DNA from: a virus
Strand: one strand, 5' to 3'
Length of the DNA: 46,320 bases
IMG/VR virus record: IMGVR_UViG_3300028707_000001
Coordinates: 1 to 46,320 of that record
Under the pieces are notes generated by a model, which searched no databases, had not been told where the DNA came from, and saw only the letters and a program-made list of their open reading frames with translations. The position numbers and the translations under genes were made by a program. This document shows, piece after piece, positions 2,799-40,948 of the stretch. The stretch's first letter is position 1. Each line of letters starts with the position of its first letter.

Positions 2799-2887
2799 GA
2801 GCAGCCACAGATCCCATGCGAAGGGTGGCCACCGATGGCACATCGTTCCACAGCGACAACGGAATCCGCTACCGCGGCGCGCTGCTG

Positions 2888-5388: not shown

Positions 5389-5876
5389 GCTACTTTGCCG
5401 ACGTCGTGGAATGGCACAAGGCCGCCGGAATCCCACTGGCCGATAAGCCGACCCGACTCACGTCCTCCCGGTGGCTGCTGCGGCTGGACCTGATGGACGA
5501 GGAATGGCGGGAGTTCCGCGACGAGGCATTCGTGGTCAACCCGAGCAACATGGCCGGCGTTGCCAAAGAGGCCGCCGACCTCATCGTCACCGTGCTGGGC
5601 ACGATGGCCGAGATGGGCATCCCGTTCGACACGGTGTGGGAAGCGGTGCACCGCTCGAACATGACGAAGATCGGTCCGAATGGCTCCGTGGTCATGCGGG
5701 AGGACGGGAAGATCCTCAAGCCGGAGGGATGGTGCCCGCCGGATATCGCAGGGATTCTGATCTCGAGCCCGCCCGCCGAGGTCGAGTGGACCGGTGCCGA
5801 CGAGGGCGAATGGCGCCGCCGGATGGACGGATACGGAATCGACACGTCGGAGAACACGTTCGGGAGCGTGCTGTGA
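5385..5876 (+). CDS. MazG-like / PRA-PH-type nucleotide pyrophosphohydrolase
   Basis: 163 residues from GTG 5385, overlapping the previous stop. It shows the acidic pattern of all-alpha NTP pyrophosphohydrolases: LMDEEWREFRDEA (EExxE) followed by KEAADLIVTVLGT (ExxD), then the phage-typical VHRSNMTKIG and GKILKPEGWCPPDI tail. Such enzymes hydrolyse (d)NTPs to the monophosphate and pyrophosphate, perhaps adjusting nucleotide or alarmone pools during infection. It is just upstream of the clamp gene. The family assignment is firm; the substrate is not known. Confidence 0.8.
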   Translation: MSYFADVVEWHKAAGIPLADKPTRLTSSRWLLRLDLMDEEWREFRDEAFVVNPSNMAGVAKEAADLIVTVLGTMAEMGIPFDTVWEAVHRSNMTKIGPNGSVVMREDGKILKPEGWCPPDIAGILISSPPAEVEWTGADEGEWRRRMDGYGIDTSENTFGSVL

Positions 5877-6979
5877 AGTTCACCATCGACGCGGCGTCCC
5901 TCCGTGCGGCGGCCGAGTGGGCGGGCCGGCACACCGGGACCGCTATCCCGATCCTGTCCGCCGTGGTGATCGAGGCGGGCGCCGACGCGGTGACGCTGTC
6001 CGCCAGCGACTACGACACGTGGGCGTGGCAGTCAGCCGAGGCGCACGTCGCGACCGCCGGCCGGACCGCGGTGTCCGGCCGGCTGCTGCGCAACATCGTC
6101 GGTGCGCTGCCCGAGGGCCGGGTTGACGCGGTGGCCGAGGGTTCGCACCTGCACCTGTCCGCCGGCCGGAACTTCAAGGCCCGACTGCCCGTGATGCCCG
6201 CCGAGGACCACCCGGCGTGCCCGCCCGTGCCCGACCCGGACCTGGCCCTGCCGGACGGCGCGGGCCGGCTGCTGGCCCACGCGGCGCCGCTGGCCGAGTC
6301 GCTGGCCGAGAAGACCCAGCACCAGTGCGGCTGCCGCCTGGAGATCGACTCGTCCGGGGTGCTGCTCGTGGCCCGGGACGACTACCGGCTGTTCGAGGCG
6401 CGGCTGCCGTGGCCGAGCAAGGCGGCCGGCGCGGACGCCACGCTGCACCTGCCGGCCCGGACGACCGCCGCGCTGGCCGAGCTGGCCACGCTGGGCCCGC
6501 TCGTACTCGGTCTGCCGACCGAGGGTACCCTCCTCGCGGCCACGTCCGGCCGGGCGAGCCTTGCCTGCCGGACGATGGGCGCCGCCATGAATCCGTGGGC
6601 GCCGCTGTTGGCGCAGAAGACGGCTCGGTCGCTGGTCGTGGACACCGCCGAGTTGATCGTCGCGGTCAAGGTCATGGTGCCGACCTTCGACGACCCCGAG
6701 CAGGCCAAGACCAAGATTCTGCGGCTGGCGGTCGGTGGCGGCGGGCTGACCGTTGCCACCGACGCGGCCACCTCCGAGCCGGTGGAGGTCGCACACGGCC
6801 CGGAGTGGGATGAGCACCCGTGGGAGCTGGCGGTCAAGGCTCCGTACCTGCTGAGCATGTTGGAGGCGGCCGACTGCGAGTCGGTGCGGATCGATTTCTC
6901 CACCGGCAACCGTCCATGGAAGATCACCCGGCCGGGCTCGGACAACTTCACCGCCGTCGTCATGCCGATCCGAGTGTGA
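5873..6979 (+). CDS. dnaN: DNA polymerase III beta subunit-like sliding clamp
   Basis: 368 residues from GTG 5873 (GTGA overlap with the previous stop), which removes an out-of-place Arg-rich extension. The start KFTIDAASLRAAAEWAGRHT, a PILSAVVIEA strand, a central RDDYRLFEARLPW and the C-terminus DNFTAVVMPIRV match bacterial beta clamps (normal C-terminus MPMRL), and the length is normal (~370). A phage-encoded clamp would tether host or phage-recruited polymerase to phage DNA. Sequence is divergent from chromosomal DnaN, as usual for phage versions. Confidence 0.85.
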   Translation: MKFTIDAASLRAAAEWAGRHTGTAIPILSAVVIEAGADAVTLSASDYDTWAWQSAEAHVATAGRTAVSGRLLRNIVGALPEGRVDAVAEGSHLHLSAGRNFKARLPVMPAEDHPACPPVPDPDLALPDGAGRLLAHAAPLAESLAEKTQHQCGCRLEIDSSGVLLVARDDYRLFEARLPWPSKAAGADATLHLPARTTAALAELATLGPLVLGLPTEGTLLAATSGRASLACRTMGAAMNPWAPLLAQKTARSLVVDTAELIVAVKVMVPTFDDPEQAKTKILRLAVGGGGLTVATDAATSEPVEVAHGPEWDEHPWELAVKAPYLLSMLEAADCESVRIDFSTGNRPWKITRPGSDNFTAVVMPIRV

Positions 6980-9595: not shown

Positions 9596-10158
9596 AGCCC
9601 CCCGCGCACTTGGCGCATCTTCGCCGGGACGGATCGGGGCGCCCGGTCCCGTACATCAACGTCATGGGCGCTCATGACGTTGTGGATCGGTGGCGAATCG
9701 CCTACGACCGCAACCTAGGCGAGATCGCCGCCTTCTACGATGACGACCCGTCCGGAGAGCCCAACTTCCTGCGGCAGTCCATTCAGCGACAACGCGAGTG
9801 CGCCCGCCTCGGACTGTGCCAAGTCTGCGCCCGGCCTGTGGACTGGCCTGATCGGCGGATCGTCATCTCCTCGGTGTCGGTTGAGGTCGTCACACTTCGG
9901 GGTCGGCACGCTGCCGTGGTTACCGAGCCGTGGCTGTGCCCAGACTGCGCCGACTTCGCCACCCGCGTGTGCCCGGCGCTTATCCGCCGCGGTCGCGACG
10001 ATGACCTGACCGTGGTGCCGGTGGCTCGCCCGGAGCGCTGCCAACTGGTGATATCTCGGGGCTGGATCGACGGTCGATACGAGGCGGCAACCAAGGCGAG
10101 CCCGGTTGCCATGTGGGTCAAGATCTACCTGTCCGCCAGCGCGACGCAAGTAGCGTGA
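9592..10158 (+). CDS. zinc-ribbon-like hypothetical protein
   Basis: 188 residues from GTG 9592, overlapping the previous stop. Two knuckles, CQVC and CPDC, plus a further Cys (RVCPAL) suggest a zinc ribbon around residues 80-130. It overlaps the terminase start by 4 bases, so it is co-translated with packaging genes. Family not recognised. Confidence 0.65.
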   Translation: MKPPAHLAHLRRDGSGRPVPYINVMGAHDVVDRWRIAYDRNLGEIAAFYDDDPSGEPNFLRQSIQRQRECARLGLCQVCARPVDWPDRRIVISSVSVEVVTLRGRHAAVVTEPWLCPDCADFATRVCPALIRRGRDDDLTVVPVARPERCQLVISRGWIDGRYEAATKASPVAMWVKIYLSASATQVA

Positions 10159-11501
10159 CGGCGCTCGCGCACCGGTACTTCCCCCGCGGCGGTTGCCGCA
10201 CCCTGTTCGCGCTCCGGGACGCTGAGGTCCTGTCCAGCGGGCCGGCCGGCACCGGCAAGAGCCGCGCCTGTCTGGAGAAGCTGCACGCCTGCATGCTGGC
10301 CAACCCGGGCGCCCGCGCGCTGATCGTCCGCAAGACTGCCGAGTCGCTGACCACGACGGCCCTAGTCACCTGGCGGCAGCACGTCGTGCCCGAGGCGCTG
10401 ACGGCCGGGCTGGTCACCTTCTACGGCGGCAGCGCCGAGGAGCCGGCGCAGTACCGGTACGGCACCGGCTCGCGGGTGATGATCGGCGGGATGAACAAGC
10501 CGAGCCGGATCATGTCCACCGAGTACGACATGATCTATGTACAGGAGGCCGTCGAGCTCACCCCGGACGACTGGGAGGCGCTGACCACGCGGCTCCGCAA
10601 CGGGGTGATGAGCTTCCAGCAGTTGATCGCGGATACGAACCCGGACCGGCCGACGCACTGGCTGGCCGAGCGCTGCTCGTCCGGCGCCACGGTCCAGGTC
10701 GAGTCCCGGCACACCGACAACCCGCGGATCTACGACGACGTGACCGACCTGCCGCCGGCACCCGGGGACGTCGAGTCGCACGAGCGGCGGTACCGGCTGA
10801 GCGAGTTCGGCGCCGCCTACATGGCCCGGCTGGACAGCCTCACGGGCGTGCGCCGGCTGCGACTGCGGGACGGCAAGTGGGTCGCGGCCGAGGGGATCAT
10901 CTACGAGGAGTACGACCCGGCCGTCCACCTGATCCCGCCGTTCCCGATCCCGGCGGACTGGGCTCGGTACTGGTCGGTGGACTTCGGTTACCGGCACCCG
11001 TTCGTCCTGCAGATGTGGGCCGAGGGCCCGGACGGGGACCTGTACCGCTACCGGGAGCTGTTCGGCACTCAGCGCACGGTGGACGAGTGGGCGACCGCGG
11101 CGCTGGAGCAGGTCGCCGAGCGGGCTGGGCCGGGCTGGCGCTGGACGGAGCCGAGGCCGGCCGCGATCATCTGCGACCACGACGCGGAGAACCGGGCCAC
11201 CTTCGAAAGGTGCGTCGGGCAGTCCACCCGGGCGGCGGACAAGCGGGTCAACGCGGGCATCGACGCGGTAAAAGTTAGGCTCCGTGATCGGCGTCTCTAC
11301 CTGTTCCGGGGCGCGAGGGTGCATGCTGACCCTGACCTACTCGAGGCGCACCGCCCGTCGTGCACCGAGGAGGAGATCTCCGGCTACGTCTGGGATGCCC
11401 GCCGGGAGTCTCCTGTGAAGGAGATGGACGACGGGTGCGACGCGCTGCGGTACATGGTGACGTACCGGGATCTGGGCGGTCGCAGCTCGATCCGGTTCTA
11501 G
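10155..11501 (+). CDS. terL: terminase large subunit
   Basis: 448 residues from GTG 10155. ATPase and nuclease motor that packages DNA into the prohead. Walker A GPAGTGKS at 29-36, a Walker B-like segment YDMIYVQEAVE near 122-132, and C-terminal RNase H-like nuclease acidic residues in WSVDFGY (D276), ICDHDAEN (D341) and MDDGCDALRYM near 425. Length and domain order are those of phage large terminases. Partner: the HTH protein at 8657. Confidence 0.93.
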   Translation: MTALAHRYFPRGGCRTLFALRDAEVLSSGPAGTGKSRACLEKLHACMLANPGARALIVRKTAESLTTTALVTWRQHVVPEALTAGLVTFYGGSAEEPAQYRYGTGSRVMIGGMNKPSRIMSTEYDMIYVQEAVELTPDDWEALTTRLRNGVMSFQQLIADTNPDRPTHWLAERCSSGATVQVESRHTDNPRIYDDVTDLPPAPGDVESHERRYRLSEFGAAYMARLDSLTGVRRLRLRDGKWVAAEGIIYEEYDPAVHLIPPFPIPADWARYWSVDFGYRHPFVLQMWAEGPDGDLYRYRELFGTQRTVDEWATAALEQVAERAGPGWRWTEPRPAAIICDHDAENRATFERCVGQSTRAADKRVNAGIDAVKVRLRDRRLYLFRGARVHADPDLLEAHRPSCTEEEISGYVWDARRESPVKEMDDGCDALRYMVTYRDLGGRSSIRF

Positions 11502-11569: not shown

Positions 11570-11737
11570 GTGCCATGGTCGGTGGCGGCCCGCGCCCGGC
11601 CGTACGTCATGCCGGGTGCCGGGCTGGCCAGCTTCACCGTCGGCGCGTTCACCTGGTCCACGGTGGCCGGCTGGATGGCGCTCGGCGCGGCCCTGTTCGC
11701 GCTGGACTGGTACGGCGACCGGGCCGGATCCTCGTGA
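11570..11737 (+). CDS. small membrane protein between terminase and portal
   Basis: 55 residues from GTG 11570; a TTG at 11543 would add 9 residues (LALARVKAV). Two hydrophobic segments (PGAGLASFTVGAFTW; VAGWMALGAALFALDW). It overlaps the portal start. Small membrane proteins at this position occur in other actinophages. Start uncertain. Confidence 0.5.
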   Translation: MPWSVAARARPYVMPGAGLASFTVGAFTWSTVAGWMALGAALFALDWYGDRAGSS

Positions 11738-13047
11738 GCTTCGTCGGGGCGGTCGCGGCCAGCGTGCGCAACGCCGCGCCCGTCCCGTACTCCCAGCCGG
11801 CGCCGCTGGGCATCTGGTCCTCGATGCTGGCCCGGACCTCGATGACCGCGCAACTGGCCGCGATGGGCAACGTCAGCACCCTGTTCGCCGTGGTGTCCGC
11901 CATCGCCGAGTCCACCGCGGCGCAAGAGTGGTACCTGGAGCGGGTGGTCCCGGACGGCCGGCGCACCTTCGGCCCGATGGAGCCGGCCCGGACGCAGATC
12001 GTCAAGCACCCGGCGCTGGACCTGTGGCAGACCCCGAATCCGTTCTACTCCCGGTATGACCTCGTCGAGACCTCCACCCAGCATCTGAAGCTGACCGGCG
12101 AGGCATGGTGGGTGCTGGCCACCGACCCGCGGGCGCCGGCCCTGCCGCTGGAGATCTGGCCGGTGCGCCCGGACCGGATGGCCCCGGTGCCGCACCCGAC
12201 GGAGTTCATCTCCGGGTACGTCTACACCGCCCCGGACGGCGAGCGGGTGCCGCTGGAGTTGTCCCAGGTGATCCAGGTCAAGACGCCGAACCCCTTGGAT
12301 CCGTACCGCGGCATGGGCCCGGTGCAGGCCCTGCTGGCAGACCTGGACAGCGTGCGCTACAGCGCCGAGTGGAACCGCCGGTTCTTCCTCAATGACGCCA
12401 CCCCCGGCGGCATCATCGAGATGGACGACAGCCTCCCGGACTCCGAGTTCGAGAAGATGAAGGCCCGCTGGTATGAGAACCACCGGGGCGTCGGCAACGC
12501 ACACCGGGTGGCGTTCCTGGAGCGGGCGCACTGGAAAGACCGCCAGTTCACCATGCGGGACATGCAGTTCACCGAGCTGCGCAGCCTGAGCCGGGACATC
12601 ATCCGCGAGGCGTTCCGGGTGCACAAGTCCACCCTCGGCCAGAGCGACGACGTGAACCGGGCCAACGCCGAGGCGGCCGACTACCAGCTGGCGAAGTGGA
12701 ACGTGGAGCCGACGCTGGAGCGGTTCCGGGGCGCGCTGAACAGCCGGCTGCTGCCCCGTTACGCCGCGAACTCCCCGGTGCTGTTCGGGTTCGAGTCCCC
12801 GGTGCCGGAGGACGAGGCGGCCGAGAACGCGGAGCTGACCGCGAAGACGGGCGCCTACAAGACGCTGATCGACGCCGGGGTGGACCCGATGGACGCGGCC
12901 ATGACCTGTGGCCTGCCGCCGATGAAGTCCGCGCCGAAGCCGAAGCCCGCCCCCGTACCGCCGGCCCTGCCGGTGCCGGACCCGGAGCAGGCGGACGCCC
13001 GGCTCAACGGCCATCACAAGCCGACTGGAGAGGTGGTGCGGGCATGA
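11734..13047 (+). CDS. portal protein, HK97 family
   Basis: 437 residues from GTG 11734. Forms the dodecameric ring at the DNA-entry vertex. Recognised from the phage_portal pattern: VSAIAESTAAQEWYL, HPALDLWQTPNPF, LTGEAWWVL, VIQVKTPNPLDPYRGMGPVQALLADLD, SAEWNRRFFLNDATPGGII, and the clip/crown part RVAFLERAHWKDRQFTMRDMQF. A Pro/Lys-rich tail (KPKPAPVPPALPVP) ends the protein. Position between terminase and protease fits. Confidence 0.9.
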   Translation: MSFVGAVAASVRNAAPVPYSQPAPLGIWSSMLARTSMTAQLAAMGNVSTLFAVVSAIAESTAAQEWYLERVVPDGRRTFGPMEPARTQIVKHPALDLWQTPNPFYSRYDLVETSTQHLKLTGEAWWVLATDPRAPALPLEIWPVRPDRMAPVPHPTEFISGYVYTAPDGERVPLELSQVIQVKTPNPLDPYRGMGPVQALLADLDSVRYSAEWNRRFFLNDATPGGIIEMDDSLPDSEFEKMKARWYENHRGVGNAHRVAFLERAHWKDRQFTMRDMQFTELRSLSRDIIREAFRVHKSTLGQSDDVNRANAEAADYQLAKWNVEPTLERFRGALNSRLLPRYAANSPVLFGFESPVPEDEAAENAELTAKTGAYKTLIDAGVDPMDAAMTCGLPPMKSAPKPKPAPVPPALPVPDPEQADARLNGHHKPTGEVVRA

Positions 13048-18528: not shown

Positions 18529-18562
18529 CCGGCGTGCGGATTCCGGGATCCCCGCACGCCGG
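18529..18562. terminator. bidirectional hairpin between convergent operons
   Basis: CCGGCGTGCGG (18529-18539) pairs perfectly with CCGCACGCCGG (18552-18562), 12-base loop. It lies 16 bases after the + strand head operon and 5 bases before the end of the - strand operon, so it can end both. Confidence 0.75.
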
Positions 18563-18566
18563 ACCA

Positions 18567-18878
18567 CTACACCCCGGGCCAGCGAAGCGCAGCGACCGCC
18601 CTTGACTGGTCCAGAGGTTGCCCGGCCGGTGACCAGGATCTGCCCAGGAAACGGCCAGAACCCGCCCCGCGCCAGGTCCGCAAGTTCCGCCAGTAGACCC
18701 AGCCGTAGGCCAGCGCCGAGACGCCGAACGCCCACTGCCGGGTCTGCACCGCGTAGATGATCCACAGCGCCTCGTCCACGAGCCCGAGCGCCCAGCCGCG
18801 CCAGTCCTTCCGGCCGGCCAGCCACAGCCCGACGAGGCCGAACCCGGCCAGCACTGCGGACCACAGGCCGGTCGTCAC
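18567..18878 (-). CDS. multi-pass small membrane protein of the transfer-like operon
   Basis: 103 residues from GTG 18878 (overlapping the upstream stop). Three to four hydrophobic helices (LWSAVLAGFGLVGLWLAG; LGLVDEALWIIYAV; FGVSALAYGWVYW) and the ending NLRTWRG seen in small membrane proteins of actinobacterial mobile elements. Last gene of the minus operon. It may help DNA spread between hyphae or cells like Spd proteins; inference. Confidence 0.6.
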   Translation of the reverse strand: MTTGLWSAVLAGFGLVGLWLAGRKDWRGWALGLVDEALWIIYAVQTRQWAFGVSALAYGWVYWRNLRTWRGAGSGRFLGRSWSPAGQPLDQSRAVAALRWPGV

Positions 18879-19657
18879 GGGGTCGCGGCGCGGGCCGCCG
18901 CCCGGTGCCGGGTTCTCGTCGCACGGCTGACCGTGCCGCCGCAACCGCAGTCGCAGGGCAACGCCGGGGTGCTCACCTTGCGTCGGCGTGAGCCACCCGC
19001 GGCGGGGCTCACGCGGCGGGGCACGGGGGTGCTCACCGGGGGCTCACCGGGTGACTCGGCATGGTGCTCACGAGCTGGCTCACCTGGGGTGCTCACGAGT
19101 GCCAGTCCGGGGGGCTCATCGGGGGTGCTCACGGTGGCTCGCTCGGGGTGCTCAACGGTCGGGCTGAGTCGATGGTTGCGGGACTCGCGGACGAGCCACA
19201 GCAGGTGCAGCCCGAGGGCGGTCGCGATGGCCGGCCAGTACCCGACCCCGAACCTCAGCCGCCAGTCGGGAGCCCCGAGCCCGGCCAGATTGACCGCCTG
19301 TGCCAGCCCGGACAGTCCGGCCGCCAGCACGACCACGGTCCAGGCGTAACGCCGCGCCGTGCCGGCCAGTAGCGGCGTGGACAGATAGGCGACCATGGCC
19401 AGCCCGTCCGTGATCGGCACGTAGACCCCCGCCATCCGGGGCCGGACGCCGCACGCGGTGGCCACGGAGTACAGCCCGTGGGCGGTCGCCACAGCCCCGC
19501 ATCCGGCCACGACCAGGGCCGCCCACCAGACCAGGGGCCGGTGAGAGTTCTCATGAGAGTTCTCACCCCCGGGGGTGGGGTTCCCGCTGGTCGCAGGCTT
19601 GCCGGGGTGAGTAGGTGGGTGAGAGTTCTCATTGAGAGTTCTCACGGGCGATGCCAT
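18875..19657 (-). CDS. DUF2637-like membrane protein (SpdB-type)
   Basis: 260 residues from ATG 19657 with AGGAAGG upstream. The middle (about 41-155) holds four transmembrane helices: VWWAALVVAGCGAVATAHGLYSVA, VPITDGLAMVAYLST, YAWTVVVLAAGLSGLAQAVN, YWPAIATALGLHLLWLV. This matches DUF2637 proteins commonly encoded beside TraB-like genes in actinobacterial plasmids and AICEs. The N-terminus is full of ENSH and the C-terminus of VSTP, both dictated by DNA repeats in the gene. The C-terminus ends with CDCGCGGTVSRATRTRHRAAARAA, a Cys knuckle plus basic tail. Confidence 0.7.
   Translation of the reverse strand: MASPVRTLNENSHPPTHPGKPATSGNPTPGGENSHENSHRPLVWWAALVVAGCGAVATAHGLYSVATACGVRPRMAGVYVPITDGLAMVAYLSTPLLAGTARRYAWTVVVLAAGLSGLAQAVNLAGLGAPDWRLRFGVGYWPAIATALGLHLLWLVRESRNHRLSPTVEHPERATVSTPDEPPGLALVSTPGEPAREHHAESPGEPPVSTPVPRRVSPAAGGSRRRKVSTPALPCDCGCGGTVSRATRTRHRAAARAATP
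18968..19155. repeat. cluster of GGTGCTCAC nonamers (candidate clt/TRS-like transfer site)
   Basis: Exact copies of GGTGCTCAC at 18968-18976, 19028-19036, 19063-19071, 19088-19096 and 19124-19132, a one-mismatch copy (GGTGCTCAA) at 19147-19155, and shorter GGCTCAC relatives at 19041 and 19077. Spacings of 60, 35, 25 and 36 bases are irregular. The copy at 19063 is in a different reading frame (REHH instead of VST), so the repeat is kept at DNA level. TraB-type translocases recognise clustered 8-bp direct repeats near their gene; this cluster lies next to such a gene. Confidence 0.6.
19542..19644. repeat. two tandem pairs of the palindrome-like repeat TGAGAGTTCTCA
   Basis: Copies at 19542-19553 and 19554-19565 (abutting) and at 19620-19631 and 19633-19644 (1 base apart). 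Each has 5-bp arms TGAGA/TCTCA around GT. They lie in the first codons of the DUF2637 gene and create its ENSHENSH sequence. Likely a protein-binding site: operator or transfer-related element. Confidence 0.55.
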
Positions 19658-19689
19658 GGCGGGCGCCTTCCTGGGGGTGCTGTCGGGGG

Positions 19690-21678
19690 TCAGCCTGTCC
19701 GGTACTTGGGATGGACCCAGGCGCCGTATCCACCGTCGCGGGCGGCGGCCTTGAGCCAGCGGTACAGGGTCGCCTCGGGCACCTGATGCCCGGCGGTGGC
19801 CAGAGCCTCGCCGACCTTCGGGCCGCTTAGCCCGGCAGGTCCAGCGGCGTCAAGGATGGCCATCATCCGGTCCCGGGGTGCGGTGGCCTTCTCGGCGGCC
19901 AGCTCGCGCAGCACGTCCGCCTCGTCCCGGTCGCCCATCGAGCCGACCAACTGCTCGAACTGCGCGCCGACGACCTCGGGCGTGAGCATCCGGTCCGCGG
20001 CGGCCCGCACGTCCCGTGAGAAGCCCGCGAGGTCCATCCCCGAGACGGACGGTGAGGCAGCGGGTGAGGTACCCGGTGGGACCGTGGGCGGGACGCGGCG
20101 GGCAGTCTCGCCGGGCCTCACTGAGACGGGCTCACCGGTCATGTCCGGGAGCACCCGGTCCCACCGGGCGGCGTAGTGCTGGCCGAGTGGGACCGCCGCT
20201 GAGACGGCATCGAGGGTGGGACGGCGGGACGCGCACTCGATCGCGATCCGGTCGATCACCTGGGGCGGGGAGGTGTGCAGCGACCGGAAAACCTCGATCG
20301 GCGCGGCCAGGCTCGGCCTGATCCAGCCGCACCCGGGGTGCGCCGCCGAGGTCGGGTCGAGCCGCACCCGCCAGCCGAGCGCGTACCCGACCTCGGCCTC
20401 GTCCGCCACCCCGAACAGGACCCGGGAGCCGATCTGCGCCTGCGCGTCGGTGGGCATGTTCCCGCCGGTGAACCGCAGGGTGGACATCACCGCGCGGACC
20501 CCGGTGGTCCGGCCGAGCTGCAGGATGCGGACGAGGTTGCTCCGCAGGGTCGGGTTGGCCGCGTCGCCGGCCGCCTCGGCGGACTCGTCCAGCACGATCA
20601 CGATTTCGGGCACGTCGGCGGACATCGGCACGACGTCGGTGTTCTGGGCCCGCATCAGCGGGTGGTAGGCACGACGCCGGTCGGTGATGATCTGGAGCGC
20701 CATCTCGGTCATCAGCAGCGCCTCCTCGACCGTGGTCGCCGGCCAGTCGATCGCGGGCTCGCCAGCATGGCCCTCCAGCCACGGGGCCAGCCACGGCAGG
20801 GCCAGCCCGCCGCCGGCGAGGTCGATGTGCCAGACCAGCGCGTCGGGGCAGCGGACCAGTCCGGCGGTGACGGTGTGCAGCAGGTTGGTCTTGCCGCCGT
20901 CGGTCTTGGCCGTGACGTTCATGCACTCCCGGCGCAGGCTCACCGTCACCGGCCGCCCGTCGCGGAACCAGCCGATCGGCAGCGGGCCGTTCACCGACAG
21001 CGGGGCCGTCTCGGTGTTGAGCCGTGCCGTGGCCAGGGTGTCCACGGTGGCGACCCGGATCCGCCACGTGCCGCGGACCGGGCCGGGCTGGACCTCCGCG
21101 CCGCACCCGTTGGGTAGGTGCAGGCTGTTCGCGATCTTCTCCTCGACCCGCTTCAGGTCGGTCCAGCCGGCGCCGCTGTTGCCGCCCGCGACCCCGTCCA
21201 CGTCGTAGCCGGTGCCGGTCGGCCAGTCGGCCACCGCGGTCACGGATAGCCCCTTGATGTCGGACAGGCGCCCGAGTCGGTCCTGCCATTCCTCGTTGCC
21301 GCCACCGTGGCCGGGCTGGTCGCCCTCCTGCCCGGCCACGGTGGAGTCCTTGCGGCCCGGCAGGGCCGGGATGCCCAGCAGGGCCAGTCCCGCGCCGCCG
21401 GCCAGCGCCACCCACAACCCGGGGATCCACGGGCCGGTGACGTAGCTGACCGCGACCCAACTGCCGGCCGCGACCCAGCAGGCCGCGCGGAAGATGGCGA
21501 CCGCCCGGCCGTCGTGCCACGAGGCCAGCAGCGCGACCAATCCGGCCGCTGGCCCGAGCCCGGCCGGCCACCAGGGCGAGAGGTGGGCGATGGTGGGCGC
21601 ACCGAGGAACGCGCACGCACCCGCGATGCAGGCGCACGCCACCGTGGTCGCCACGGTCTCCCAGCGGTCCTCGGTCAT
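19690..21678 (-). CDS. FtsK/SpoIIIE-family DNA translocase (TraB-like)
   Basis: 662 residues from ATG 21678 with GGAGG upstream; a longer frame to 21741 lacks support. The N-terminal ~125 residues carry about four transmembrane helices. The motor has a degenerate Walker A (AKTDGGKT, K263; the first Gly is Ala) and Walker B IVIVLDESAE (D364/E365), plus FtsK-like LVRILQLGRTTGVRAVMSTLR. The C-terminal ~50 residues (MMAILDAAGPAGLSGPKVGEAL ... ATLYRWLKAAA) look like a winged helix, as in TraB proteins that bind short clustered repeats. In actinobacterial conjugation such proteins pump double-stranded DNA between cells. Here it sits in a phage genome; a packaging or segregation role cannot be excluded. 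Confidence 0.82.
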   Translation of the reverse strand: MTEDRWETVATTVACACIAGACAFLGAPTIAHLSPWWPAGLGPAAGLVALLASWHDGRAVAIFRAACWVAAGSWVAVSYVTGPWIPGLWVALAGGAGLALLGIPALPGRKDSTVAGQEGDQPGHGGGNEEWQDRLGRLSDIKGLSVTAVADWPTGTGYDVDGVAGGNSGAGWTDLKRVEEKIANSLHLPNGCGAEVQPGPVRGTWRIRVATVDTLATARLNTETAPLSVNGPLPIGWFRDGRPVTVSLRRECMNVTAKTDGGKTNLLHTVTAGLVRCPDALVWHIDLAGGGLALPWLAPWLEGHAGEPAIDWPATTVEEALLMTEMALQIITDRRRAYHPLMRAQNTDVVPMSADVPEIVIVLDESAEAAGDAANPTLRSNLVRILQLGRTTGVRAVMSTLRFTGGNMPTDAQAQIGSRVLFGVADEAEVGYALGWRVRLDPTSAAHPGCGWIRPSLAAPIEVFRSLHTSPPQVIDRIAIECASRRPTLDAVSAAVPLGQHYAARWDRVLPDMTGEPVSVRPGETARRVPPTVPPGTSPAASPSVSGMDLAGFSRDVRAAADRMLTPEVVGAQFEQLVGSMGDRDEADVLRELAAEKATAPRDRMMAILDAAGPAGLSGPKVGEALATAGHQVPEATLYRWLKAAARDGGYGAWVHPKYRTG

Positions 21679-21688
21679 CGGTCCTCCG

Positions 21689-21859
21689 TCAGTGACCCAG
21701 CCAGGCCAGCACGGCCTGAGCGTCGTACTCGTCGTGCTCACCCATGTCGTCGAGGAACTCCTCCCAGACCTCCTCGCCCATCTCGTGGTTGACGACGATC
21801 TCGTGGTAGGCCCTGGCCTGGTCGATGGTCACGCCCTCGGCCGAGTCGTAGTAGCTCAC
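21689..21859 (-). CDS. small acidic hypothetical protein
   Basis: 56 residues from GTG 21859 (GTGA overlap). Very acidic and helical (GVTIDQARAYHEIVVNHEMG, WEEFLDDMGEHDEYD). Ends 11 bases before the translocase start, so its translation may be coupled to it. Function unknown. Confidence 0.55.
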   Translation of the reverse strand: MSYYDSAEGVTIDQARAYHEIVVNHEMGEEVWEEFLDDMGEHDEYDAQAVLAWLGH

Positions 21860-22236
21860 TGCCGCGCTCCCGGCCCGTCGCCCAGCGACCACCAGCCTGT
21901 GACGATCGTGGGCATGAAGTACTCGTCCTCCATCCAGATATCCCTGCCCGCCTGCAACTGCGCGGCGTGTGAATGGCACAGGATCGCGGCCTGAGTCGTT
22001 TCGTACGCCGTGAACTCCACCCAGACCGCGGCCGGCTTGACGCATCCGGGCACCCCCGTGGGGCCCTGCCCGCACTCGGTCGCAGGCCCGTCCACGGCGC
22101 ACGGGCAGCCGATCCAGGACTGGCACTCGTGCGGCTCGGTCACCACAGCGCCAAGCTGACGAACAGGCTCATCGGCGGGACCGCCCACCAGCACCAGTCC
22201 GCCGCCGCCAGCACCGCCCGTACTGTCGATCGCCAT
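21856..22236 (-). CDS. hypothetical Cys-rich protein of the transfer-like operon
   Basis: 126 residues from ATG 22236. Gly-rich start, six Cys with CQSWIGCPCAV, an AAILCHSHAAQLQ helix, and FMPTIVTGWW. Resembles small CHSH-containing proteins of Streptomyces-type mobile elements, but no named family recognised. Confidence 0.5.
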   Translation of the reverse strand: MAIDSTGGAGGGGLVLVGGPADEPVRQLGAVVTEPHECQSWIGCPCAVDGPATECGQGPTGVPGCVKPAAVWVEFTAYETTQAAILCHSHAAQLQAGRDIWMEDEYFMPTIVTGWWSLGDGPGARQ

Positions 22237-22243
22237 AGCCAGC

Positions 22244-23908
22244 TCACCGCATCCATGCCTGCGGGTCCGGCCGACCGCTGACCTCTTCAGCCGCCTGCCG
22301 GGGTGTGGCGTCGGCGGACCGGCTCAGTGCGTCCGCCCGGTTGATCGCCTCGTGCAGCTTGTGGGCCTCGCCGGCCAGCGCGCGGTACATGTCCGCGACC
22401 GCGCGGTGCGAGGGAGACTGCTCCACCGCGGCGGCGCTCGCCCGGAGTCGCGCGACGACGTCATCGACGGCGCTGTGGTTGGCCGCGTTCATCTTCGGCC
22501 AGTCCTCGCGCATGCTGTGCAGTTCGGCCGGCATACCTCCTCCTGTCCCGGGCGAGAAGTCCACGTACCCGCCCGTGTCGTGAATCGAGTCGTGCAACGC
22601 TGCCCGGCGGGAGCGGGGTGGGCGCACCGGGGAGGCCGGGGGGCGGTCCCCCCCGGTGCGCCGGGACGGACCATCCGCGACCGGGGTTGCCGGGACGTCC
22701 GTGGTTGGTGGGACATGGTCGATGGTGGTGCGGGACGCGCGCCGCAGTCGGCCGTTGACCCGCTCCCACCCATCGTCGCCGGGCTTGCCGGTGGCGGCCC
22801 GGGCGCGGGCCCTGGCCGTCTCGGCGTCGTGCGCCTTCAGCCGCTCGGCGGCCCGCTTGCGCGCGTCCCTGGCGCCGGGCACGCCGCCCGAGGGTTTGCG
22901 CACCGTGGGCCGGTGCTCGGGCTGGTCGGTGCCGGGTTTGCGCCGGAGCCGGGGCAGATGCGGGCGCCAGCCGCGCCGGGTCCGCTCGGTGCCGGCCTGC
23001 CCCGTGCCGGGCCGGTGGGTCGAGGTCGCCGGAGGCTTGCTCTGTCCGCGGTCGGGCCGGTTGCGCCGCAGTCGCGGAAGGTGGGCCCGCCAGCGGGAGC
23101 GCGACCCCCGGGGGGAGGAGGTCCGACCTGCGCCGCCCGCTGGCGGGTTATTCCCACCCCGGGGCCGACTGGAGCCAGGGCGGGAAGATCCGGGACGGCG
23201 CATCCGGGACCGGAACCGCTGCCAGCGGGAGCCTGAGGGGCGATGACGGTTTGGCCCGGCGGACGGGGGGGCCGACCGTGCCGCCGGGCCGCGCCCGGTC
23301 CGGTCGCCACGGCGCCCGCCGATGCGGCGCCCGACCCGTGCGGCCAGTCTGCCACCCGCACGGCCCATCCGTGACCCGGACCCGCCAGAACGATCACGGC
23401 GGCGCAGCCAGGACCCCGGCGAGCGGAGCCGGCGAGGACCGCCCGCCGAGGGTCCTGACCCCGGGCGGCGGCCGGCGGCAGCGGAGGGGCGCCCCCGGCC
23501 GAACCTGCCCAGCATGCGGCGCCCCGGCCCCCTGCCGACCGGGACGCCCGCTCCCCCGGCAACTCCCGGCGACCTGCCGGGGGAGCGGGCCGCGGACGGC
23601 CGGGTGGGAGTCCGCCCGCCCGCGGCTGCCTTCCTGGCGGCAGCCTTGGCCGGCTGCCGCTTGGCCAACTTGCGCGCGGCCACGACGGCGCCCGCGCCTG
23701 ACGCCACCGTGGCCGCAGTCCAGCCGGCCCACGCCGGCCCAGCGCCGGCCCACACGCCGGTCACCAGGAGCGCAGTGCCCATCACCCCGGCCGCAGCCAG
23801 GTGCGCCCGGGGGAGCGGCCGGGGTGATGGAGTAGTGGTCCCCCGACCCGGGGCCGGAGCCGGGGGAGTCTGCGGCGCCGCGGTCTGCGGCGCGCTCGGG
23901 GCGGTCAC
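22244..23908 (-). CDS. large Arg/Pro/Gly-rich membrane protein of the transfer-like operon
   Basis: 554 residues from GTG 23908. Residues ~36-75 form two hydrophobic helices (LAAAGVMGTALLVTGVW; WTAATVASGAGAVVAA). The next ~300 residues are extremely basic and low-complexity (runs of RPGSSRPRG, RRLRSPGS, PRLRRNRPDRG), unlikely to be globular. The last ~110 residues (MPAELHSMREDWPKMNAAN, HRAVADMYRALAGEAHKLHEAINRAD) are helical and follow the pattern of the C-terminus of proteins encoded beside TraB in actinobacterial AICEs. The basic region may bind DNA. A second frame on the other strand is open but is a GC-rich shadow. Confidence 0.6.
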   Translation of the reverse strand: MTAPSAPQTAAPQTPPAPAPGRGTTTPSPRPLPRAHLAAAGVMGTALLVTGVWAGAGPAWAGWTAATVASGAGAVVAARKLAKRQPAKAAARKAAAGGRTPTRPSAARSPGRSPGVAGGAGVPVGRGPGRRMLGRFGRGRPSAAAGRRPGSGPSAGGPRRLRSPGSWLRRRDRSGGSGSRMGRAGGRLAARVGRRIGGRRGDRTGRGPAARSAPPSAGPNRHRPSGSRWQRFRSRMRRPGSSRPGSSRPRGGNNPPAGGAGRTSSPRGSRSRWRAHLPRLRRNRPDRGQSKPPATSTHRPGTGQAGTERTRRGWRPHLPRLRRKPGTDQPEHRPTVRKPSGGVPGARDARKRAAERLKAHDAETARARARAATGKPGDDGWERVNGRLRRASRTTIDHVPPTTDVPATPVADGPSRRTGGDRPPASPVRPPRSRRAALHDSIHDTGGYVDFSPGTGGGMPAELHSMREDWPKMNAANHSAVDDVVARLRASAAAVEQSPSHRAVADMYRALAGEAHKLHEAINRADALSRSADATPRQAAEEVSGRPDPQAWMR

Positions 23909-24183
23909 GACGGGTCAACCTCCTCCGGGATGGCCGGCCCGAGGTCGGCCAGCACCATCCGGGCCAGCCCGCCCTGAACCGATCCCGGACCCTGCTCGAG
24001 CACGCCACGGCAGCGGCGCAGGGTGAACCGCACCCGGCGGGCCAGGTCGTCCAGCTCCGACTGCCGGAGGGTGTATGCGGCCATCAGTGCGTCGGCGTCG
24101 GCCAGCGTCGGGCGCTGCCCGTTGACCAGCGCCTGCCGCGCCCGGTCGATGCGGTCGGCGTCCGTCAGCGCGGTCCGGGTCAT
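23905..24183 (-). CDS. hypothetical helical protein of the transfer-like operon
   Basis: 92 residues from ATG 24183, overlapping neighbours by 1 and 4 bases. Helical (DADRIDRARQALVNGQRPTL; TLRQSELDDLARRVRFTLRR), acidic tail. No family recognised. Confidence 0.55.
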   Translation of the reverse strand: MTRTALTDADRIDRARQALVNGQRPTLADADALMAAYTLRQSELDDLARRVRFTLRRCRGVLEQGPGSVQGGLARMVLADLGPAIPEEVDPS

Positions 24184-24458
24184 CACCCACCGACCGAGTT
24201 CGCGGCAGTGGAGACCGCATGGGCGACCGCCGAGAAGATGCCGAGCACGGTGCCGCCCAGCGTCGGCATGGCCGCGCCGGCCGCGATGCCAACCAGCAGG
24301 GCCGGCAGCGTGGCGTTGCCCATCCGCCACATCACGAACGCGGCGGCCAGCAACAGCACCCCGAGCGAGGCGGTGACCGTGGTCGTGGCGCTGGCCTGCT
24401 GGACGTGGTGCACGGGCGTCTTCGCGGCGAGGGCGAACAGCTTGGTCGAGAGCATCAT
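24183..24458 (-). CDS. small two-to-three-pass membrane protein (SpdB2-like)
   Basis: 91 residues from ATG 24458 (ATG 24455 is also possible). A soluble start (STKLFALAAKTPVHHVQQAS) is followed by two or three transmembrane helices (TASLGVLLLAAAFVMW; ALLVGIAAGAAMPTLGGTVLGIFS). Such small hydrophobic proteins accompany translocases in actinobacterial transfer operons. Role in intermycelial spread is inference. Confidence 0.55.
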   Translation of the reverse strand: MMLSTKLFALAAKTPVHHVQQASATTTVTASLGVLLLAAAFVMWRMGNATLPALLVGIAAGAAMPTLGGTVLGIFSAVAHAVSTAANSVGG

Positions 24459-24583
24459 GGCGCGGTCCGTTCGGGGCGAGGTTTGGGTTCGTGGGCGGTG
24501 TGGGCCGGGTCGTGGTACGTCGGCAGCAGGCAGTACGCGCCGTCCGGCAGCGGCCAGCAGCAAGGGATCGGTTCGTCGCTCAT
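24455..24583 (-). CDS. very small Cys/His protein
   Basis: 42 residues from ATG 24583 behind GAGGAGG. PIPCCWPLPDGAYCLLPTYHDPAHTAH has three Cys and three His, in the pattern CxxP..YCxLPxxHxxxH seen in tiny zinc-binding proteins of actinobacteria. Overlaps genes on both sides. Function unknown. Confidence 0.55.
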   Translation of the reverse strand: MSDEPIPCCWPLPDGAYCLLPTYHDPAHTAHEPKPRPERTAP

Positions 24584-25368
24584 GCCGTCGCCTCCTCGGA
24601 CCGGGCCGGCAGGTACGTCAGCGGTTGCGTGTCGGCGGGCTCCGACTCGGCTGCCGCCATGTCGAGCAGGGTGGTCAGGATCAGCGGCTCGCCGGCCAGT
24701 ACCCGGCCGTAGTTCGGCCCGGCCACGAGGTAGATCCCGTTGGCCTGCGCGACCTTGACCGCGCCCGGGTGGAAGTTGGCCGCCGTGGTCACGAACGCCG
24801 CGACGTCGGCGTCATGGACGCTCCAGCAGGTCCCCGCGAACGCCTGGAGATCCTTGGAGCCAACGTAGGAGTCCGGGTCGTAGCACTTGCACTGGACGAC
24901 CCCGAACAGCGGCTCCGGTCCGCGCCGCCACCATCCCACGACGTCCGCACCGAGGTCGCCGGACCCGCCGGAGACCCGCACGTCCTCCCAGCCGTCGCGG
25001 GTCAGCAGCGCCGCGACCTGATGCTCGAAGGCGCTGCCGTCGTTGCCGGGTGAATAAGCCGTGATGACCAGAGCCTTGGCCTGGTCCTCGCTCTGCTCGG
25101 CGCGACGCCGACGCGAGCCCAGCCACAGCAGCAGCCCCGCCACGCCGAACGCGGCGGCCAGCAACAGCGGCAGCCCGACCGCGAGCCCAAGCCGGATGCC
25201 GGCGCTGTGCTCGTGCGCCCACATGTTCAGCCGGATCCAGCCGAACCAGCCGGCCACGGCCAACCAGAACAGCGCGGCGGGCCGGACGCGGAGCCGGGAC
25301 CGGTGGACCAGTCGGAAGGTATCGGACCGGCGGTGCCCGCTGACCTCGATCGTGTGCCGTCGCGCCAC
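24580..25368 (-). CDS. membrane-anchored Mrr-type restriction endonuclease-like protein
   Basis: 262 residues from GTG 25368. Two N-terminal transmembrane segments (about 31-48 and 63-84) precede an Mrr_cat-like domain: FEHQVAALLTRDGWEDVRVSGG, GDLGADVVGWW, then GVVQCKCYD, which supply the D...(E/Q)xK nuclease signature (GADVV, QCK), and DLQAFAGT with ADVAAFVTTAANF. Mrr-like domains cut DNA, often modified DNA. In a transfer-like operon it may process incoming DNA or exclude other elements. The membrane anchor is unusual. Activity not shown. Confidence 0.7.
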   Translation of the reverse strand: MARRHTIEVSGHRRSDTFRLVHRSRLRVRPAALFWLAVAGWFGWIRLNMWAHEHSAGIRLGLAVGLPLLLAAAFGVAGLLLWLGSRRRRAEQSEDQAKALVITAYSPGNDGSAFEHQVAALLTRDGWEDVRVSGGSGDLGADVVGWWRRGPEPLFGVVQCKCYDPDSYVGSKDLQAFAGTCWSVHDADVAAFVTTAANFHPGAVKVAQANGIYLVAGPNYGRVLAGEPLILTTLLDMAAAESEPADTQPLTYLPARSEEATA

Positions 25369-25371
25369 CGC

Positions 25372-25533
25372 TCAGCCCTCCGATCCGGAGCTGTCCGGCG
25401 CGTTGTCCGTCCTCACCGACAGGGCCGCGTAGTGGTCCAGCACCCAACGCAGGACCCGCTGGCGGGCTGCGTCGTCGGGCAGGTTCTCCAGAGCCCTGGC
25501 GATGGCGCGCATCGCGCTGATCTCCTCGTTCAC
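25372..25533 (-). CDS. small conserved hypothetical protein
   Basis: 53 residues from GTG 25533, overlapping the upstream stop. EEISAMRAIARALENLPDDAARQRVLRWVLDHYAAL is a helical pattern I recall as common in Streptomyces-type prophages and mobile elements. Function unknown. Confidence 0.6.
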   Translation of the reverse strand: MNEEISAMRAIARALENLPDDAARQRVLRWVLDHYAALSVRTDNAPDSSGSEG

Positions 25534-25739
25534 AACTGGTCACCCGCCTCGAGCACCAGGGCGAACCGGCCGGTCGTGCCGACGAAGCTGGCCGAGATGC
25601 GGGACAGCGAGTAGTGCCGCCCGGCCATCTCGATCAGCACGTCCTTGCTGGGGTCCATGTTCTGGCCCCACGCGCCACCGCCCTCGGTGGCCGTCTTGAT
25701 TGCGTGCGTAAGGTCCGCAACGCTCAGGATGTCGGACAT
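25530..25739 (-). CDS. small hypothetical protein, first gene of the transfer-like operon
   Basis: 69 residues from ATG 25739, with GAAGGGG about 10 bases upstream. Mixed alpha/beta (SVADLTHAIKTATEGGGAWG, SKDVLIEMAGRHYSLS, RFALVLEAGDQL). It follows the strong minus-strand promoter. Function unknown. Confidence 0.6.
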   Translation of the reverse strand: MSDILSVADLTHAIKTATEGGGAWGQNMDPSKDVLIEMAGRHYSLSRISASFVGTTGRFALVLEAGDQL

Positions 25740-25779: not shown

Positions 25780-25822
25780 ATCAGGTGGCCTGATGATTAC
25801 TCCCGGGAGGCCAGCTTGTCAA
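25780..25822 (-). promoter_or_regulatory. near-consensus promoter and palindromic operator for the transfer-like operon
   Basis: On the minus strand, -35 TTGACA (25822-25817), 17-base spacer, -10 TAATCA (25799-25794). The predicted start falls inside the perfect inverted repeat ATCAGG-TGG-CCTGAT (25780-25794). An operator at the start site fits repression by a bound regulator. The HTH gene at 25850 is divergent and close, so it is the first candidate. Confidence 0.7.
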
Positions 25823-25849: not shown

Positions 25850-26140
25850 GTGACCGGCCGTAGCGAACAGGCGGCCCGGATGCGGGTCCTGTCCGCCTCG
25901 ACGAGGGCCCGACGCCTGGTCGGTAACGCAGTGGCGTCGCCCATGCCGGCAGCACTGGCCGCCGCGAAAGAACTCGCCGACGGCGCCGGGCGCGAGCTGC
26001 TGGCCGCCGTGGTCGAGGCTGCCCGGGAGTCCATGACCGACGCCGAGATCGGTGCCGCACTCGGCGTGTGCGGACACGCTGTCGGCCAGCGCTTCCCGCC
26101 GGCCCTGCCGCGACGCCGGGGGAGGCGGCCGGCCCGCTGA
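25850..26140 (+). CDS. small helix-turn-helix protein, candidate regulator of the transfer-like operon
   Basis: 96 residues from GTG 25850; ATG 25793 or 25880 are alternatives. A basic start (ARMRVLSASTRARRLVGNAV) precedes helices and a C-terminal HTH: MTDAEIGAALGVCGHAVGQRFP, matching the AEIGxxLGVSRQAVxQRF pattern of actinobacterial HTH proteins, with Cys-Gly in the turn. It is transcribed away from the minus operon and may act as a Kor-like repressor at the palindrome. Inference from position. Confidence 0.55.
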   Translation: MTGRSEQAARMRVLSASTRARRLVGNAVASPMPAALAAAKELADGAGRELLAAVVEAARESMTDAEIGAALGVCGHAVGQRFPPALPRRRGRRPAR

Positions 26141-26238: not shown

Positions 26239-27288
26239 ATGGCACTGAGCAGTCCTGTCTACTGCACGCGCGAGGACGTAGCGGCCGCCCTGGACGTCAA
26301 GGGCACGGCCCGCACCGCCGCGCAGATCGACGCCATCCTTGAAGCCGCCCGGGACTCCGTTGAGGCCACCCTCAACCGGACGTTCACCCCGCTGGACACC
26401 ACCCGGTACTTCGACTGGCCGAACCTGGCTCGGGCCCCGTCGTGGCGGCTGTGGCTGGACTCCTCCGAGGTCGCCTCCGTCTCCGCGTTGGTAGCCGGCG
26501 GCGTGACCATCGGCGCGGCGAACTACAACCTCGAGCCGAACGCGCTCGGCCCGCCGTACGACCGCATCGAGGTCAAGCTGTCCTCGACCTCGGCGTTCGC
26601 CTCGGCGTCCGGCACCCATCAGCGCTCGATCGCCGTCACCGGGACGTTCATCGGCTGCCCGCTGGTCACCGCGCCGGCCGGGGTGCTGGCCGAAGACCTG
26701 GACAGCAGCGAGACTGCGGTGGACGTCACCGACGGCAGCCTGATCGGGGTCGGGGACCTTCTGCTCTGCGGCACCGAGCGGATGTTGGTCACCGGCCGGA
26801 CGTGGCTGACCAGTGGACAAACCCTGGGCACATCGCTCACCGCGAGCGCGGCCGGCGTCACCGTGGCCGTGACGTCCGGGGCGGCGCTGCACACGGGCGA
26901 GGTCATCCTGCTCGACTCCGAGCGGATGCTGATCACCGACATCGCCGGCAACAACCTGACCGTGAAGCGCGCGTGGGACGGCTCCGTGCTGGCCACCCAC
27001 GCCGGCTCGACCGTCTATGCCAGCCGGACCCTGACCGTGGTCCGGGGCGCGGCCGGCACCACGGCGGCCACCCACTCCAGCGGAGCGGCGCTGACCCGGC
27101 ATGTCGTGCCCGGCCTGGTCAACCGACTCGCCGCGGCCGAGTCGCTGACCGTCCTGCTCGGCGAGGGCTCCGGCTACGCCCGACCGGCCGGGACCGGGGC
27201 CAGCCAACGGCCACAGCCCGGGTCGATCGAGGACATCCGCAAGCAGGCCGAGGGCCAGTTCCTGCGGATCCGGACGGGAGCGGCGTGA
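26239..27288 (+). CDS. head-to-tail connector/adaptor protein
   Basis: 349 residues. The N-terminal ~100 (CTREDVAAALDVKGTARTAAQIDAILEAARDSVEATLNRTF) is the helical pattern of gp6/gp15-like connector proteins that sit under the portal. The middle contains two repeats of a beta unit (GDLLLCGTERMLVTG; GEVILLDSERMLITD, each followed by LTVxRG/KRAWDG and ATH), an Ig-like or beta-helical insertion. The C-terminal SIEDIRKQAEGQFLRIR closes the protein. It is the first tail-operon gene after the inverted insert and would normally follow the capsid genes. Confidence 0.7.
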   Translation: MALSSPVYCTREDVAAALDVKGTARTAAQIDAILEAARDSVEATLNRTFTPLDTTRYFDWPNLARAPSWRLWLDSSEVASVSALVAGGVTIGAANYNLEPNALGPPYDRIEVKLSSTSAFASASGTHQRSIAVTGTFIGCPLVTAPAGVLAEDLDSSETAVDVTDGSLIGVGDLLLCGTERMLVTGRTWLTSGQTLGTSLTASAAGVTVAVTSGAALHTGEVILLDSERMLITDIAGNNLTVKRAWDGSVLATHAGSTVYASRTLTVVRGAAGTTAATHSSGAALTRHVVPGLVNRLAAAESLTVLLGEGSGYARPAGTGASQRPQPGSIEDIRKQAEGQFLRIRTGAA

Positions 27289-40102: not shown

Positions 40103-40948
40103 GTGACCAACATCGACACCGCCAAGCTCGAGGGAATCACCCTCGCCAAGGGCGGCCACGAGACCCCCGGCGACGGGCTGTGCCTGATGGAGGCCGTGGC
40201 GTACGTCCGCGGCATCCCCCACACCGACCACCCCGCATGCGTCTCGGAGTACCTCGGCGAGTTCGGCCGCACCCTGAACGACCGGCTCCCCGACGACGCC
40301 CGGCAGGGCCTCATCCGCCTCATTCCACTACTGCCCGGCACCGCGAGTGACGGCCTGGACGAGCGCCGTCGCTGGATCGCCGCTGACTATTCCACGCGCA
40401 CGCTGGCACCGAAGTGGCTGGACCGCGCCGGCCTCACCGAGCACGCCGAGACCCTGCGCTCATTGCCGCCGATCGTGGACCGGGACACCTACAACGGCGC
40501 GTACAGCGCCACGTCCGCCGCCCGGGACGCAGCATGGGACCTGCGCAGCCAGCGGCTCGACGCGATCCGGGCGCGGGTGCGCGAGGCGCTAGCCGAGCGG
40601 CCTGCCGCTGCCACTGTCGCTGACGCTGTCGCTGTCACTGCCGCTGTCGCTGTCGCTGACGCTGTCGCTGCCACTGCCGCTGCCGCTGTCGCTGTCGCTG
40701 ACGCTGTCGCTGACGCTGTCGCTGTCACTGCCGCTGTCGCTGACGCTGTCACTGCCACTGCCACTGTCGCTGACGCTGTCGCTGTCACTGCCGCTGTCGC
40801 TGTTGGCCACTACTGGACGGTCAGGAACGCCGTCTACGCCAAGGTCCGGGCGCTCTACGAAGAGCGGTACGCCGACCTGATCGCCGAATGCCGCGCCGAC
40901 GCGATCACCCTGTTCGAGCGGCTGATCCGCGCGGACGTGACCGCATGA
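40103..40948 (+). CDS. conserved actinophage protein with an expanded Ala/Val/Thr/Asp repeat tract
   Basis: 281 residues from GTG 40103. [52 protein letters not shown] and [17 protein letters not shown] are the conserved front of a family common in actinobacteria and their phages (function unknown). Residues ~168-233 are a dipeptide-periodic tract made of Ala/Thr plus Val/Asp/Ala, encoded by hexanucleotide repeats. A conserved helical end ([32 protein letters not shown]) follows. The tract may form a long helix or linker of variable length. Confidence 0.7.
40604..40803. repeat. hexanucleotide tandem repeat tract in coding sequence
   Basis: About 33 consecutive hexamers built from GCTGTC, GCTGAC, GCTGCC and ACTGCC, each encoding two residues. 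Length changes by whole units would keep the reading frame. Longer-range copies (GACGCTGTCGCTGTCACTGC recurs) point to expansion by slippage or unequal recombination. Confidence 0.85.

Follow-up and report, generated by a model that had tools for sequence, protein, structure and literature searches.

The 46,320-base IMG/VR viral record analysed here (the window) is a metagenomic contig without end repeats and of unproven completeness, and looks like the genome of a phage of soil actinobacteria. Between its head and tail genes lies a minus-strand operon which we judge, at somewhat better than an even chance, to be a moron-like cassette encoding a TraB/clt-type dsDNA transfer module of actinomycete-plasmid descent. 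Such a module would most likely move phage DNA between cells or hyphal compartments. A preliminary description made from the sequence had read the operon as a transfer module; the motor family, the architecture of a partner protein and a clt-like repeat array sustain that reading, while the novelty claimed for it among siphoviruses falls away and its Spd and DUF2637 assignments are weak.

TraB/clt systems are marked by an N-terminal membrane anchor, a C-terminal winged-helix domain and Spd spread proteins. Hexameric TraB binds 8-bp clt repeats and moves dsDNA through membranes; the transferred dsDNA is then spread within the mycelium by Spd proteins (PMC12857230, PMC4170104).

The plus strand of the window encodes, among other products, a helicase, a methylase, a replication initiator, a DnaN-like clamp, a GH25 lysin, terminase, portal, a ClpP-type protease and capsid; after the insert it continues with the head-tail connector and tail genes, and then recombination genes. 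The features of the operon and its surroundings are as follows.

10155-11501, plus strand: terminase, complete
11734-13047, plus strand: portal (PF04860, 1.5e-54)
ending at 18513, plus strand: last head-gene ORF before the insert
18529-18562: hairpin with an 11-bp perfect stem, separating the operon from the convergent head genes
18567-18878, minus strand: gene 12, membrane protein of about 103 aa, PnuC-like (phrog_2421)
18875-19657, minus strand: gene 11, membrane protein of about 260 aa, remotely DUF2637-like, with a Cys-rich C-terminus
18968-19160, minus strand: five to six GTGAGCACC repeats inside the 3' half of gene 11
19542-19644, minus strand: four identical direct copies of TGAGAACTCTCA in two pairs, candidate clt
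19690-21678, minus strand: gene 10, TraB/FtsK-like dsDNA translocase, 662 aa, with N-terminal hydrophobic helices, an FtsK-type motor and a helical C-terminus
21689-21859, minus strand: gene 9, putative ORF for a 56-aa acidic protein
21856-22236, minus strand: gene 8, 96-126 aa, Cys-containing, start codon uncertain
22244-23908, minus strand: gene 7, 554 aa, with a Pro-rich N-terminus, a TM segment, a long basic Arg/Gly/Ser linker (net charge +74) and a helical-looking C-terminus
23905-24183, minus strand: gene 6, 92 aa
24183-24458, minus strand: gene 5, 91 aa, two predicted TM segments, no family match
24455-24583, minus strand: gene 4, putative ORF, 42 aa
24580-25368, minus strand: gene 3, membrane-anchored Mrr-type nuclease, 262 aa (PF04471), catalytic residues conserved
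25372-25533, minus strand: gene 2, 53 aa
25530-25739, minus strand: gene 1, 69 aa
25781-25793: unique palindrome TCAGGTGGCCTGA, overlapping the promoter and adjoining its -10 region
25793-25822, minus strand: sigma-70-like promoter (TTGACA at 25822-25817, 18-bp spacer, AATCAT ending at 25793)
25880-26140, plus strand: divergent gene, 86 aa, with a helix-turn-helix-like stretch recognised by eye
26239-27288, plus strand: head-tail connector (phrog_442)

The twelve ORFs of the insert (18567-25739) are separated by -7 to +32 bp and most overlap by 1-7 bp, a tight layout that bears out the opposite-strand operon splitting head from tail genes that had been described; several ORF boundaries are provisional, as their start codons are uncertain. 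The head-tail stretch measures 9.1 kb in the window versus 47 bp to about 1.9 kb in eight phages that share its virion (L010, L013, L020, L030, L034, L050, Dagobah L056 and G038), none of which has a transfer-type operon at this site. Some of these phages hold small accessory genes there, so the stretch can be regarded as a moron site. The insert has the traits of a phage moron: a place between virion genes, absence from that place in the eight relatives, and a predicted promoter and hairpin of its own.

The predicted control signals agree with the promoter, operator and repeats attributed to the operon from the start. The promoter was found once, against 0.2 expected in shuffles, and TCAGGTGGCCTGA is probably the operator; the repeats are the four TGAGAACTCTCA copies and the GTGAGCACC-type array. 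The hairpin at 18529-18562, kept with one mismatch in a second contig (L009), is probably a bidirectional terminator. The 86-aa divergent gene has no Pfam match and stands where G038 has a GntR gene; it is possibly a local regulator.

No RNA family, tRNA or tmRNA was found in the window. The clamp gene (5873-6979) encodes a phage-borne homologue of the DNA polymerase III beta clamp (Pfam, 1.5e-14). Repeats occur at two further places. One is a tandem CTGTCG array at 40602-40803 (33.7 units, with a 30-bp higher-order unit repeated 6.5 times) inside the ORF at 40103-40948. The other, at 3352-3510 inside the replication-initiator gene (2825-3886, phrog_3171), combines two copies of CCCTGTGGATAA with 5.7 of ACCCACA, possibly the DnaA boxes and iterons of a replication origin.

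Gene 10 is the core of the operon. Its product matches phrog_31069 at 4.4e-75, which confirms the FtsK/TraB-like translocase first proposed, and over its whole length it is about 30% identical to translocases of pSQ10, pFQ12, Streptomyces and Kitasatospora plasmids, P1312 and Hiyaa. The Pfam model FtsK_SpoIIIE does not recognise it; used as a profile, it matches FtsK in the PDB (2iuu, 6e-13). The protein has three hydrophobic segments within residues 7-102 and an FtsK/SpoIIIE-type RecA motor, in which Walker A reads A-x4-GKT instead of G-x4-GKT and Walker B hhhDE; its Walker motifs are conserved in conjugative-type plasmid translocases. The NCBIfam TraB model matches residues 232-442 (6.3e-11), and the score of 41.5 bits lies below the curated equivalog cut-off of 800 (NF041214), so we do not file the protein as a TraB equivalog. 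We class it as a TraB homologue, which probably works as TraB does.

Structure prediction points the same way. The best PDB matches found by Foldseek for the AF2 model (pLDDT 79.7), in which the C-terminus is helical, are the FtsK motor and the conjugation ATPase/coupling protein TcpA, with terminases absent among the listed structural matches. Compared with predicted viral structures, the model comes closest to other phage FtsK-like proteins, and some virion packaging ATPases match much more weakly. We rejected a packaging ATPase as the identity of the motor, which groups with transfer motors rather than terminases. Sequence, the AF2/Foldseek match and the tree described below together support its placement with actinobacterial plasmid transfer motors. 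The preliminary description had named, as counting against it, a motor grouping with non-conjugative phage motors together with other genes unlike transfer operons; that combination is not what the analysis found.

A viral-contig scan with the single translocase sequence gave no match and an alignment query was needed; alignment-based scans collected 38 viral and 33 genomic loci. Hallmark phage genes (portal, terminase or tape measure) also occur in 22 of the 37 other IMG/VR translocase records (one of them Hiyaa), and the same family is found in P1312, in ZL12 and in a circular, 51.8-kb phage-like plasmid of Streptomyces NBC_01177, where the module lies just upstream of terminase. The idea that this gene set is foreign to normal siphoviruses is contradicted by these records: phages with such modules are a recurrent type. 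Judged from match coordinates, family records mostly place the module upstream of terminase or past the tail genes, and no other case between head and tail genes appears among them, several records not having all landmarks placed. The window is new in three respects: the site within a virion operon, the occurrence in a phage of a repeat array of plasmid type, and the addition of a membrane nuclease.

On a FastTree tree of the family, phage and non-phage labels require 8 changes versus a shuffled mean of 20.6. The window pairs with G038 as its sister (0.95), and the pair is nested in a plasmid/genome group (0.82), apart from the main phage clade (0.999). From this nesting, the window lineage probably took its motor from plasmids independently. 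The survey as a whole suggests more than one entry of TraB-like modules into actinophages.

At 90.7 kb, the record of the sister phage G038 (IMGVR_UViG_3300021086_000004) is twice as long as the window. Its virion genes stand in the same order (terminase 49%, portal 52% and capsid 46% identical), and it carries a sister operon, the nearest relative of the one in the window, with homologues of the translocase (40%), gene 11 (49%) and gene 1 (34%, its first operon gene) and a TM-basic protein. Unlike that of the window, the G038 operon lies at about 77.6-84.9 kb, some 40 kb from terminase, the head-tail site having no insert; it is preceded by a divergent GntR/UTRA regulator, and an Mrr gene was not found. 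An operon type unique to the window phage was therefore rejected. With the same virion and a sister operon elsewhere in its genome, G038 shows that the module is common to at least two phages of this virion type, at different places.

A repeat array lies 46-145 bp past the translocase stop. The four same-direction copies of TGAGAACTCTCA are each 12 bp with 5-bp inverted arms, versus the published 8-bp TRS of TraB/clt plasmids, and occur nowhere else in the window. The protein sequence does not impose them: among 20,000 synonymous recodings of the stretch, none contained more than a single copy. Both the presence of short repeats and their position, at the 3' end of the motor gene or shortly beyond it, are as in clt; the array sits at a position matching the clt of pWTY27, which is made up of the 159 bp next to traA plus 16 bp of the gene itself (PMC3583192).

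The same position was compared across 76 loci by scoring 8-mers that recur within the 250 bp behind the translocase stop against other stretches of the same locus. These settings were picked after the window's repeats and an exploratory scan of the same loci had been seen, so the p-values are optimistic: 29 loci fall in the top 5%, with 3.8 expected (p = 1.5e-18), and with one representative per 55%-identity cluster at least 9 of 25 do so (p at most 1.9e-6). Nine other offsets, at the same settings, place 0-9 loci in the top 5%. The array is present in 2 of 26 phage-borne members, the window being one of the two, versus 24 of 35 others (p = 1.3e-6, without correction for relatedness). Motifs vary by lineage, with CGTTAC in relatives of pSQ10 and GGTGTGCA, CGACAAGC and others elsewhere. 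In pSQ10 and related Nocardiopsis elements (L008, L117, L126 and L127) a dense CGTTAC-type array on both strands stands directly behind the translocase gene, a candidate clt of those plasmids.

A different array, of GTGAGCACC repeats, lies within gene 11 of the window, and at the corresponding place G038 has a GCGAGCCC array. At the exact post-translocase position G038 has no array (rank 0.56); one is present inside the next gene. DUF2637-type genes of Streptomyces elements (L114, L119, L125 and L133) likewise contain in-frame short DNA repeats of ACGCCCGTC type, coding TPV, a second repeat array analogous to the one in gene 11.

The large basic membrane protein reported from the sequence is indeed there: in 39 homologous loci the partner protein encoded immediately upstream of the translocase has the same layout as gene 7. 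Compared by hhalign with these architectural counterparts, gene 7 reached a probability of 46-48%, and we make no claim of homology. Repeat lists from the GC-rich gene 7 region were dismissed as low-complexity effects. The DUF2637 assignment of gene 11 survives in part, with a weak match (E = 4e-4) to an HMM of four DUF2637-type proteins and none to Pfam; the gathering score of PF10935 is reached neither by gene 11 nor by its 49%-identical G038 counterpart. The several Spd-like proteins cannot be upheld. The operon does contain small membrane proteins, and none matches a Spd family: gene 12 belongs to a family of small membrane proteins present in 194 actinophage records and annotated PnuC-like, and the 91-aa protein has no family. 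HMMs of neighbour families link genes 1-2, 4-6, 8 and 9 to no transfer gene, and relatives of the remaining small genes were found nowhere outside G038.

The membrane Mrr nuclease was correctly recognised. Gene 3 has an Mrr_cat domain (PF04471, 5.9e-18) with the catalytic D...(E/Q)xK pattern, in which E115, D138/D142 and Q159-K161 are conserved. Its relatives stand beside the translocase in five other viral loci, with invariant catalytic residues, at a different operon position and in a different tree clade from the window. A scan with the gene 3 protein itself returned zero viral relatives and zero phage records, and its plasmid matches are generic restriction nucleases with partial coverage only.

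The module thus resembles pSVH1, pIJ101, pWTY27 and AICEs in its FtsK-type motor with predicted N-terminal membrane helices, the short repeats right downstream, the small membrane proteins in the operon and a regulatory region of its own. It differs from them in a motor below the TraB equivalog cut-off, in lacking recognisable Spd/KorA, integrase and partition genes, in its position within a phage virion operon and in its membrane Mrr nuclease. Identity as an AICE was rejected, as an AICE combines integrase, Rep and TraB and the window has no tyrosine or serine recombinase. Also related are the Hiyaa group, P1312, the NBC_01177 element and IMG/VR records such as G036, G003 and G008, which have the same translocase family and often DUF2637-like and TM-basic partners; in contrast to the window, their module lies in the non-structural region, usually upstream of terminase and co-oriented, and the downstream clt-like array is usually absent. 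Streptomyces plasmid-phages that conjugate have been reported (Chen et al. 2012, as cited in PMC4170104), and for pZL12 both conjugation and particle formation (Zhong et al. 2010, as cited in PMC3583192). Like the window, pZL12 is a phage genome with a same-family translocase (27% identity); as far as these citing accounts go, pZL12 and its relatives are plasmid-phages of about 90 kb with partition genes, whereas the window has 46 kb and none. A search of the open-access literature found no description of a conjugating phage with this virion type.

The operon could instead be a lysogenic-conversion or superinfection-exclusion cassette, in which the membrane-anchored Mrr nuclease, helped by the motor and the membrane proteins, destroys the DNA of competing phages or plasmids at the membrane. 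Accessory genes typically have such a moron position, on the opposite strand and with a promoter of their own; the catalytic residues of Mrr are intact and its pairing with the translocase recurs in the five viral loci, PADLOC gives weak generic matches to the Mrr protein, and the motor's structural matches include HerA from the SIR2-HerA defence complex. We nevertheless consider exclusion unlikely: PADLOC matches no known defence system beyond the generic Mrr similarity, the motor is of plasmid-transfer ancestry, and defence has no need of clt-like repeats and a partner protein.

More doubtful still is a segregation or maintenance device, whose translocase would carry phage or plasmid-prophage DNA across septa as they close, leaving a copy in every compartment. 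The FtsK/SpoIIIE fold suits such a role, phage annotators have labelled a homologue "DNA segregation ATPase", and ParA occurs in only 1 of the 29 translocase records searched; against it, the repeat array has the position of clt, and homologous plasmids carry both ParA and this translocase, which argues that the two have separate roles. An aid to phage DNA replication, packaging or ejection in the lytic cycle is quite improbable. The operon does lie inside the virion gene block, and a replication role was proposed for an FtsK-like gene by the authors of phage Geonosis (PMC11536984), but the window has a complete terminase, the eight same-virion phages do without the insert, the operon has its own promoter on the opposite strand, and the motor fold matches FtsK/TcpA rather than terminases.

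An assembly chimera, a plasmid fragment misjoined into a phage contig, is very improbable: the record is a single metagenomic contig and no independent copy of the whole cassette was found, yet L009 (99% identical) is continuous across the left junction to its end 20 bp inside the operon (window 18587), weak but independent support for the left join, the last operon gene belongs to a family common in actinophages, G038 combines the same operon and virion types in one record, and G+C is broadly uniform across the window.

A plasmid-derived transfer module, our preferred reading, might work as follows. The operon would be switched on from its own promoter once the operator is free. At hyphal tips or septa the translocase, FtsK-type in its modelled fold, would form a membrane-anchored hexamer, joined there by the TM-basic-linker protein and by small membrane proteins, and its C-terminal domain may recognise the four TGAGAACTCTCA repeats, placed as they are behind its gene. 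It would then pump phage dsDNA through the membrane into the adjoining hyphal compartment or a contacting cell, so that infection or a carrier state would spread with no need of lysis. The membrane Mrr nuclease might, more speculatively, act on DNA passing the membrane, either excluding competitors or processing the DNA. A bolder form of the proposal, a tailed phage whose self-contained plasmid-derived conjugation system, with motor, partner proteins and a clt of its own, is kept as a regulated moron in the virion operon and sends the double-stranded genome across hyphal septa or contacts between cells without particles, while the membrane nuclease polices the gate, we put forward tentatively, at rather less than an even chance. 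Neither an integrase (tyrosine and serine recombinases included) nor a ParA-type partition gene was found in the window, so the stable carrier state that classical conjugation needs is not evident, and spread through septa during infection would be at least as likely as conjugation from a lysogen.

The survey further suggests that candidate transfer origins of many uncharacterised plasmids can in general be recognised by an array right behind the motor gene. If the proposed function is true, two routes of gene flow, particles and conjugation, would be joined in one compact actinophage, and the passage of a phage across the cross-walls of its filamentous host would have a simple answer.
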